From positions 1 to 33,253 of the forward strand of contig JAHENZ010000153.1 of assembly GCA_018609755.1 (NCBI GenBank): DNA of 33,253 bases, written 5' to 3'. A program made the translations under genes and the position numbers. Positions 8,694 through 33,068 of the stretch are shown one piece after another. The notes under the pieces were generated by a model. It made no database searches. It was not told the origin of the DNA and was given only the letters and a program-made list of their open reading frames with translations. The first letter of the stretch is position 1; each line of letters opens with the position of its first letter. Source of the stretch: Salinivenus sp. (lineage in GTDB: Bacteria > Bacteroidota > Rhodothermia > Rhodothermales > Salinibacteraceae).

Positions 8694-9037
8694 TGGTGAG
8701 GTTCTGCTACTGAAGATCGAGTTCTGAATCGTTAGGGACACGCCTCCCTGTTGGTTTCGGGGTGACGTGAGTCATGAAGCGTGAGGCGTAATCCGTGAAA
8801 CGTGATTTGTGAGGCGTGAGCATGTCATTCCGGCCCTCTGCTCGTACTTCACGCATCACGATTCACCCATCACACAGAAAGCTACGAACGGCAACGACAG
8901 AGTCAATCCCCGGTTCGTCCTCACGGTGAATTTAGACATGAAATTAGACAGAGCGAGGGCCAACTCCTATCTTCGTTTCGTTCCGATTTGATCGTGCCGT
9001 TTCGTGCGGCTCTTTTTTCACGAACCCGAGGCAGGTC
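8694..9037. other. Divergent intergenic region between aspS and the peptide transporter
   Basis: This 344-bp region separates divergent genes and must contain promoters for both. Most of 8767-8873 is taken up by heptanucleotide repeats described as a separate feature. The remainder (8874-9037) shows no ORF of coding character and no sigma-factor or operator site that I can assign. Confidence 0.55.
8767..8873. repeat. Head-to-head degenerate heptamer repeat (GTGANNC)
   Basis: Eight consecutive 7-nt units run from 8767 to 8822 (GTGAGTC, ATGAAGC, GTGAGGC, GTAATCC, GTGAAAC, GTGATTT, GTGAGGC, GTGAGCA). After a short spacer, units of the opposite orientation run from 8839 to 8873 (TGCTCGT, ACTTCAC, GCATCAC, GATTCAC, CCATCAC). 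The two arms together can form an imperfect cruciform or hairpin. The 14-mer GCATCACGATTCAC recurs exactly at 26691-26704. Confidence 0.8.
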
Positions 9038-12999: not shown

Positions 13000-13986
13000 A
13001 TGTTCGACGTCGTCATCATCGGAGCCGGTCCCGTTGGGCTGGCTGCAGGCATTGAAGCGCAGCGGAAAGATCTCGACGCGCTCATTATCGAGAAGGGCGC
13101 CCTCTGCAACTCCTTTCTCGGGTACCCGACGCGAATGGAGTTTTTCTCCACGCCCGAGCGGTTGGAGATTGGCGGGTACCCGTTCTCGACGCGGGACTAC
13201 AAGCCCATTCGGGAAGAGGCGCTCGACTATTACCGGCGCGTGGCCGTGGCTGAAGACCTGAATCTGAACCTCTACGAGGCGGTGACGGGCCTTCGGGGTC
13301 GCGACGGCAACTTCACGGTGGAGACGGAGAAGGACACCTACGAGGCTCGGAAGGTGGTGGTGGCCACCGGCTTCTACGACATTCCCAACCGGATGGACGT
13401 GCCGGGGGAGGACCTCGACAAGGTGCGTCATTATTATAAAGAGCCGTTCCCGTACGCGCTCACCGATCTCGCCATCATTGGAGGGGGGAATTCGGCGGCG
13501 AAGGCGGCACTGGCCTGTTACCGGCACGACGCCAACGTCACGATGATTGTACGAAGCGAAGAGATCGACGACGGGGTGAAGTACTGGATCAAGCCCGACG
13601 TGGAAAACCGAATTGAGGAGGGCTCCATCGAGGCGTACTTCAATACGACGGTGGATGCCATCGAAGACGACTCGCTTCATCTCGACACCCCGGAGGGGCC
13701 CGCGCAGATCGAGAATGACTTCGTTCTTGCCCTGACCGGGTACAAGCCGAACTACGATCTGCTGGATCGGCTGGGCATTGCCATTCGGGACGACGAGGCG
13801 CGCACGCCGGTACACGACGAGGAAGGAGAAACCTTTGAGACGAACCGGGACGGCGTCTATTTGGCTGGGACCATCTGCGGCGGGTGCGACACGAGCCGCT
13901 GGTTCATTGAGAACGGCCGGTTCCACGCCGAGAAAATTGTGAATCACATGATTGCTCGCCTCGACGCCGAGCCCGTGACTGCGTAG
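13000..13986 (+). CDS. ypdA: YpdA/Bdr-like flavoprotein (putative bacillithiol disulfide reductase)
   Basis: A thioredoxin-reductase-fold FAD/NADPH oxidoreductase. YpdA (Bdr) in Firmicutes reduces bacillithiol disulfide. The 328-residue protein has an FAD dinucleotide motif GAGPVG (8-13), the family-specific segment IIEKGALCNSFLGYPTRMEFFSTPERLEIG, an NADPH-binding GGGNSAAKAAL motif (161-171) and the C-terminal AGTICGGCDTSRWFIENGRFHAEKI. The cysteine that follows GxGP in Staphylococcus YpdA (Cys14) is replaced by Val 12 here. Instead the protein has Cys 36, Cys 173 and a CGGC pair (293-296) near the flavin end of the sequence. This suggests a different redox-active Cys arrangement, but the position in the fold cannot be proven from the sequence. 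No bacillithiol biosynthesis gene is in the window. Confidence 0.9.
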   Translation: MFDVVIIGAGPVGLAAGIEAQRKDLDALIIEKGALCNSFLGYPTRMEFFSTPERLEIGGYPFSTRDYKPIREEALDYYRRVAVAEDLNLNLYEAVTGLRGRDGNFTVETEKDTYEARKVVVATGFYDIPNRMDVPGEDLDKVRHYYKEPFPYALTDLAIIGGGNSAAKAALACYRHDANVTMIVRSEEIDDGVKYWIKPDVENRIEEGSIEAYFNTTVDAIEDDSLHLDTPEGPAQIENDFVLALTGYKPNYDLLDRLGIAIRDDEARTPVHDEEGETFETNRDGVYLAGTICGGCDTSRWFIENGRFHAEKIVNHMIARLDAEPVTA

Positions 13987-13987
13987 C

Positions 13988-14181
13988 TGCGTGGGTGCGT
14001 ATGTGAGTGTGGGCGTTTGGGAGTATCGACCCGTTTTGTCCTATATGAGCGTCAGTGGTCGCATGCTGGGAGCTGCAGCTGACGTGAGAGGGGATTGTTG
14101 AGCAAGCAGTCAAAGGAATTACCTACTCGAATGCTCACACTCCCGTACCCACAAACGCCCATACTCGCACACGCCCACACG
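13988..14181. repeat. Head-to-head degenerate hexamer repeat (GNGNGN)
   Basis: The left arm near 13990-14024 reads in 6-nt units GCGTGG, GTGCGT, ATGTGA, GTGTGG, GCGTTT, GGGAGT. The right arm (about 14132-14180) is the opposite orientation, with units such as GCTCAC, ACTCCC, GTACCC, ACAAAC, GCCCAT, ACTCGC, ACACGC, CCACAC. Aligned on one strand, the arms share GTGTGGGCGT and GGGAGT. About 100 bp of unrelated DNA lies between the arms. It sits between the ypdA and serA stop codons. Confidence 0.7.
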
Positions 14182-14218
14182 AAACCCCCAACCCGTGGAG
14201 CACACAGGTTGGGGGTTT
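14182..14218. terminator. Hairpin between convergent ypdA and serA, likely bidirectional terminator
   Basis: A perfect 12-bp stem AAACCCCCAACC / GGTTGGGGGTTT (14182-14193 and 14207-14218) encloses a 13-nt loop. The T residues of the stem end form a short U run on either strand. It is 33 bp past the serA stop on the minus strand and about 200 bp past the ypdA stop, so it mainly serves serA. Confidence 0.75.
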
Positions 14219-15963: not shown

Positions 15964-16078
15964 AAGGTAGGATGGAGGGGCGAAGGGCGAGAGGGAGAAT
16001 GGGAGCGTGGGCGGCGGAGTGTCCCATGGACTGAGGACGAGGGGACAGAGGAGGGCAGGAGGCAACCGCCCAGAGGAG

Positions 16079-16666: not shown

Positions 16667-16990
16667 CGTTTGAGAGTGGGCGCGTGGGCATTGATAGCGT
16701 GGGCGGGGGAGAAGAGTGACCGTGCGCGGCTGAATGAGACAGGAAGCCCGCGGGGGCTATAAAACGGCTCCTTATACGGAATCCAACGGTCGAGGACGGG
16801 TTGAACGTTCTCGAAAATGGCGTTCTATGCCATTCGGAGTCAACTCTGACCTCCAGTGTCCCGACATCCTGAGTTGGATTTTGTATTCCCCCACGAACGC
16901 CCATACTCCCGAACTCACATACGGGGGCGCAGCAAGGAACGAAATCGGCACTGAGCCCCCGTCGCTCAAATGAGGCAGACTGCCTGGAGG
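16667..16990. other. Intergenic region between sucD and engB with hexamer repeats and hairpins
   Basis: No convincing gene. A GT-rich arm near 16672-16712 (GTGGGCGCGTGGGC) and an AC-rich arm near 16893-16926 (ACGAACGCCCATACTCCCGAACTCACATACG) resemble the hexamer family at 13988-14181; GAGTATGGGCGTT (in reverse complement) is shared by both loci. ACGGGGGC (16921-16928) pairs with GCCCCCGT (16955-16962) over a 26-nt loop, and AGGCAG-T-CTGCCT lies at 16973-16985. Neither has a T-tract, so a sucD terminator is not assigned. Confidence 0.55.
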
Positions 16991-26683: not shown

Positions 26684-26711
26684 CAATTACGCATCACGAT
26701 TCACTCCTCAC
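26684..26711. repeat. Heptamer repeat, single arm (related to 8767-8873)
   Basis: Four 7-nt units CAATTAC, GCATCAC, GATTCAC and TCCTCAC run from 26684 to 26711. GCATCACGATTCAC is identical to 8853-8866. No clear partner arm of opposite orientation is found next to it. It lies between the permease and ATPase genes of the iron importer. Confidence 0.65.
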
Positions 26712-26758
26712 GAGACGATCCGGGAACGACCACCAAGTGTGCACGTGCCGCATGCGTC

Positions 26759-32841: not shown

Positions 32842-32910
32842 ACCGTGATAGGACCTGCGTACGGTTGGCTCTCGTTGTAACCAAAAACTTCCGCGAACTT
32901 CGTTGATGCA

Positions 32911-32983
32911 TGTAGGTCTGGAAGTGTGGACGTATGGACGTAGTCCCTACATACCTCCACACGTTCATACTTCCATCCTCACA
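32911..32983. repeat. Head-to-head degenerate octamer repeat (TGGANGTA)
   Basis: Four consecutive 8-nt units run from 32911 to 32942 (TGTAGGTC, TGGAAGTG, TGGACGTA, TGGACGTA). After one G, five units of the opposite orientation run from 32944 to 32983 (TCCCTACA, TACCTCCA, CACGTTCA, TACTTCCA, TCCTCACA). When the second set is reverse complemented it fits the same consensus. The pair can form an imperfect long hairpin. It lies between the SpeE-like gene and the second DUF4178 gene. Confidence 0.85.
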
Positions 32984-33068
32984 ACCGACCAACGTCCGAC
33001 GGACGCAGTCCCTTTAGCAACAGCATTCGGCATCACCTAATTCTTTTTCCACACATCCGATCAGTCCC

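Follow-up and report, generated by a model that had tools for sequence, protein, structure and literature searches.

The window analysed here, a stretch of 33,253 nucleotides from a Salinivenus sp. contig, carries an array of short repeats at positions 8766-8874, in the intergenic region between two genes, the minus-strand aspS and the plus-strand gene of a POT/PTR2 peptide transporter. The array therefore sits between divergent genes. It is made of CGTGANN heptads arranged in two arms that face each other. The left arm (8766-8821, plus strand) contains eight heptads of alternating 14-mer character (CGTGAGT, CATGAAG, CGTGAGG, CGTAATC, CGTGAAA, CGTGATT, TGTGAGG and CGTGAGC), six with an exact GTGA core and two with one change, all in one register. 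The right arm (8847-8874, minus strand) contains four reverse-complement heptads of the TCACGNN class. Between the arms lies a spacer of 25 nt (8822-8846) devoid of any ORF, a place occupied in full-length relatives by an ORF for S23, the 23S-rRNA-intervening-sequence or four-helix-bundle protein (PF05635/TIGR02436). A previous sequence-only reading had described two opposed arms between aspS and the peptide transporter, which is confirmed by the unit calls and the flanking genes; it had counted thirteen units, and the count is 12 (8 + 4), the additional GTGA at 8762-8765 being 5 nt off the left-arm register. No run of at least four units arose in Markov shuffles of the window, and runs of three numbered 0.5. 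A known RNA family was also considered and rejected, an Rfam scan having returned no match in the window.

Other arrays are found in the same window. A solitary right-arm-like CGTGANN array of four units lies on the minus strand between ABC permease and ATPase genes (26685-26712), and the 14-mer GCATCACGATTCAC is found exactly at 8853 and 26691, as noted before. The octamer loci, previously credited with the same arm logic, do have the same layout, G-rich then C-rich: a sister family of identical architecture has its left arm at 13965-14030 (plus strand) and its right arm opposite at 14126-14186 (minus strand), and a head-to-head octamer array of the GTNTGGAN class occupies 32903-32993. A G-rich octamer array forms a single arm at 15970-16019 (plus strand), and a C/A-rich octamer array, solitary and right-arm-like, is located at 16890-16923 (minus strand). 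Two of these octamer loci are clearly head-to-head.

At the genome level, GCATCACGATTCAC occurs 5 times in 5.0 Mb and its reversed control 0 times, while the three-unit pattern GTGANNCGTGANNCGTGA, with at most one mismatch, gives 90 matches vs 4 for the reversed control. The sequence-only reading had proposed a dispersed head-to-head family, to be abandoned if the 14-mer were restricted to two loci and absent from related genomes; since the 14-mer lies at more than two loci and the family is present in relatives, this proposal stands. The polarity of the arms is fixed, as 19 of the 20 two-arm loci in 645 kb of the genome face one way, the single opposite one being overlapping and probably spurious. 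In this 645-kb sample, which was picked mainly around heptad matches and is thus enriched in heptads and not selected for octamers, period 7 was detected in 39 intergenic regions (1.0 in shuffles), period 8 in 28 (1.6 in shuffles) and period 14 in 20 (1.2 in shuffles). The intergenic excess concerns periods 7 and 8 as well as sums of the two, with the remaining periods at or near background, so that the search for 7-nt periodicity suggested earlier brings out two periods, 7 and 8. The CGTGANN family thus consists of many-copy, intergenic, tandem heptamers, which is what characterizes STRR-type repeats. Heptads are also abundant elsewhere: GTGANNC yields 311 four-unit matches in the 3.7 Mb genome of a member of another family (G330), and AGTGCNN, the reversed control pattern, has dozens of matches in G055, G146, G261, G405 and others of the phylum, where it represents another heptamer family.

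In the same genome, an octamer pair (L074) surrounds a small S23 / 23S rRNA IVP / four-helix-bundle ORF. A PF05635 search retrieved S23 genes in all 13 of the 13 genomes of the genus, with 12 matches in the genome of the window. In most cases, an S23 gene of the genus is immediately adjoined by an array of 7- or 8-mers on one side or both. With fixed criteria, opposed period-7/8 arrays are present on both sides of 23 of 68 S23 genes in the genus and of 31 of 76 across many phyla, vs none of 107 other genes from array-rich DNA, comparable in size, that served as controls. Detectable arrays on both sides are thus lacking in more than half of the S23 genes. The scan across phyla, performed on named genomes with a closer S23 alignment because the diverse one was too diverged, includes Planctomycetota, Verrucomicrobia, Chloroflexi, Flavobacterium and cyanobacteria, and here 30 of the 76 genes carry arrays vs 0.05 in shuffles. 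The arrays are oriented: those upstream of S23 are richer in G than in C (31/38 in the genus, 38/44 across phyla), and those downstream richer in C than in G (32/33 and 34/42, respectively). Among six S23 genes of cyanobacterial plasmids, the arms are clearly opposed in four (L315, L316, L318, L320); L317 has long arrays of the same orientation on both sides, and L319 has none.

The two arrays of a locus belong together: over 63 loci, the left array resembles the inverted right array of the same locus (0.220 vs 0.138, with a median rank of 4 of 63). Where sites are not orthologous, loci with more similar S23 also have more similar units, a modest correlation (r = 0.32, 0 of 2000 permutations). 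The dN/dS ratio between S23 pairs is 0.07-0.17, and S23 is thus under purifying selection. Variants of the arrangement were noticed as well. L091 and its relatives have period-15 (7 + 8) arrays around S23 genes, upstream of an RND-type-transporter-like gene, and at this one site the unit differs from species to species; a divergent four-helix-bundle subfamily (MSDLRPRTKRFTLNVIHL...; L136, L139, L140, L141, L143, L151) has TTCGAAN-type arms of its own.

The unit found in the window itself flanks an S23 gene in relatives. At one site, adjoining a leuC/leuD-like gene, an S23 ORF with CGTGANN arms is present in five of them (L138 of G010, L142 of G011, L147 of G006, L150 of G001 and L152 of G003). 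This ORF matches TIGR02436 (2e-19) as well as the pentamer 2GSC, the S23 fold being already given by structures 2GSC and 2RLD. In G009, G008, G012 and the genome of the window, a related S23 gene is found at the leuC/leuD-like site with GCGTATT arms; in the last case (L066, 8545-8835), it has a 46-residue internal deletion and lies between GCGTATT heptads. This genome is rich in GCGTATT-type arrays (116 matches), and no intact CGTGANN-type S23 was found in the parts of it that were examined. Between the S23 type at the leuC/leuD-like site and the genome array counts there is a trend only, with G001 as an exception. The window array has opposed period-7/8 arrays, G-rich then C-rich, and its unit flanks S23 in relatives, all features of the S23-array element that we propose below.

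The arrays turn over rapidly. At the aspS/POT site, most relatives are array-free; heptads are present there in the window, in G009 and in G002, and G011 has an octamer array. For 22 CGTGANN sites of G010 compared with G003, the coding flanks are for the most part 93-99% identical. Classified by eye, about 12 of these sites have the same family with a changed copy number, about 8 have another unit family in G003, mainly GCGTATT, and 2 are empty in G003. At one of the empty sites the stop codon is TAG, where in G010 it is a TGA that belongs to the array. Presence and absence at orthologous sites, as in MITEs, is therefore observed; a search for target-site duplications gave no clean case, the empty sites being too diverged beside the array. 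At site 1127734 (L193/L227), both arms differ between G010 and G003 at once, by about two 14-mers. In G010, CGTGANN arrays without S23 cluster around the S23 locus, with 5 within 20 kb (0.27 expected, P 9e-6) and 10 within 110 kb (1.47 expected), and in the closest ones the inner boundary is CGTGAGGCT, as in the full element. In G003, the clustering of S23-less arrays near S23 is not significant.

The opposed 7-letter repeats resemble the two ends of a tiny, probably self-spreading genetic element. Our favoured interpretation, which we consider fairly likely, is that the window array represents a small S23 element reduced to its two opposed ends of tandem repeats and lacking its S23 gene, and that such copies spread through recognition by a cognate S23.

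The best of the alternatives, although unlikely, is that the arrays are post-transcriptional binding sites through which S23 regulates itself, the S23-less arrays forming a regulon, for instance in 3' UTRs or leaders. The purifying selection on S23 would fit, as would the pattern of conservation: when only CGTGANN units with a core-bearing neighbour on both sides are counted, positions 2-5 (GTGA) reach 1.3-1.5 bits each, position 1 has 0.63 bits, and positions 6-7, the spacer bases, about 0.4. The same can be said of the placement of the arrays, which often begin at stop codons. According to gene positions from a simple gene finder, which are approximate, 19 of 23 arrays between co-directional genes are closer to the stop of the upstream gene than to the start of the downstream one, usually only a few bases away from the stop codon. 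In eight arrays the first GTGA unit includes the stop codon TGA. The window array departs from this placement because its flanking genes are divergent. However, sister genomes gain, lose and switch array families at orthologous sites far too fast for a regulon, and no functional theme emerges among the few neighbouring genes inspected.

A bidirectional transcription terminator in the form of a hairpin or cruciform is highly improbable; tests for cruciform formation or transcription termination had already been suggested for this locus. The arms are inverted, many copies lie directly behind stop codons, and a few lie between convergent genes. Nevertheless, variable bases in one arm are less complementary to those facing them across the spacer (0.294) than to shuffled partners (0.371), and this mismatch indicates that base pairing of the arms is not the conserved property. 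RNA folding of the window array is no better than that of shuffles (z -0.81), and none of the examples inspected has a U-run after the stem. With the variable bases unpaired and the window copy between divergent genes, such a role is not favoured.

Identity of the variable bases between units of CGTGANN arrays is 5.4% for the next unit (11.6% expected), 22% for the second-next (10.7% expected), 2.4% for the third-next (10.7% expected) and 33% for the fourth-next (15.6% expected). The variable bases thus alternate between neighbours, and the true repeat is a 14-mer of two unlike heptads. A passive degenerate microsatellite grown by slippage, as the differing copy numbers of G003 and G010 at shared sites might suggest, can practically be dismissed given the fixed polarity of the two arms, the core conserved against variable positions, the tendency of adjacent units to differ (identity 0.054, with 0.116 expected) and of second neighbours to agree (0.222, with 0.107 expected), the recurrence of one unit around S23 and at dozens of unrelated sites, and the S23 association, which slippage hardly accommodates.

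Returning to the S23 element, its full layout would be a G-rich 7/8-mer array, the S23 ORF and the reverse-complement array. The pentameric S23 protein may recognize its own tandem units, with one conserved core for each S23 contact and the variable bases serving as spacers. TRAP (trp RNA-binding attenuation protein) is a ring protein that binds regularly spaced cores, the NAG repeats, separated by variable spacer bases; the likeness is by analogy, TRAP being unrelated to S23. Such recognition could let full and S23-less copies reach intergenic sites, often directly behind stop codons, or alternatively overwrite arrays already present there. The window copy, which would descend from an S23-bearing one, lacks the S23 gene and can thus be viewed as a non-autonomous, MITE-like copy. 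The earlier interpretation is partly supported; the main point, the link to S23 genes, was out of its sight. In the literature searched, we found no earlier description of a link between S23 and tandem repeats.

Like MITEs, the elements are short and non-coding, have two inverted ends and many copies, and possess a coding parent with the same ends; they differ in that these ends are degenerate tandem arrays and that neither a transposase nor a target duplication was seen. The accessory protein Avd of diversity-generating (DGR) systems belongs to the same superfamily as PF05635 (PMC10053308); in contrast to DGRs, an unsystematic look at the surroundings of S23-array elements revealed neither a reverse transcriptase nor a TR/VR pair.

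S23 / four-helix-bundle proteins are widespread and their pentamer structure is solved, yet they have no known function, and intergenic heptamer repeats have been reported for years without explanation. With the S23-array link, the unit flanking an S23 gene becomes a ligand that can be tested for its protein, and heptamer repeats acquire a parent. It would also unite scattered reports of unexplained bacterial 7-letter repeats. These comprise unexplained intergenic TAACTGA heptamer arrays in Beggiatoaceae (PMC4679880), intergenic GGGAATC heptamers with 70 convergent pairs in Xanthomonas, and intergenic GGGGA(T/C)T heptamers in Nostoc (both PMC4692102). The orphan heptamers, including cyanobacterial STRRs, are likewise intergenic, tandem, dispersed and lineage-specific, the convergent Xanthomonas pairs being a further likeness, and they fit the S23-element picture; they differ in that the relevant passages make no link to S23 and mention no four-helix-bundle gene. 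The solved S23 pentamer XCC0516 comes from Xanthomonas campestris, the species with 70 convergent GGGAATC pairs. Whether all these repeats are remains of pan-bacterial minimal mobile elements, with tandem 7/8-mer ends, a cognate pentameric S23, co-changing specificity and families that overwrite each other, is for us an evenly balanced question, extending to the orphan heptamers of cyanobacteria, Beggiatoaceae and Xanthomonas.

The closest known system is the intervening sequence (IVS) of 23S rRNA in Leptospira and Coxiella, where an S23 ORF lies between terminal inverted sequences and which has been described as selfish. S23-array elements differ in lying outside rRNA, between protein genes, as does the window copy at aspS/POT, which is not within an rRNA gene; in having ends made of tandem 7/8-mer arrays instead of a 28-bp stem; and in that most copies were found without S23, S23 itself being here under purifying selection. 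IVS ends pair into a long stem that RNase III cuts; for the arrays, the observations on this point are the lack of complementarity between variable bases of the arms and the folding z of -0.81. In the Coxiella 23S IVS, tandem GACAGAT heptamers are located directly upstream of the S23p ORF and vary between strains (PMC4990558), which supports a relation of S23-array elements to the rRNA IVS. The S23-array link suggests that rRNA intervening sequences could be just one instance of a far wider family.
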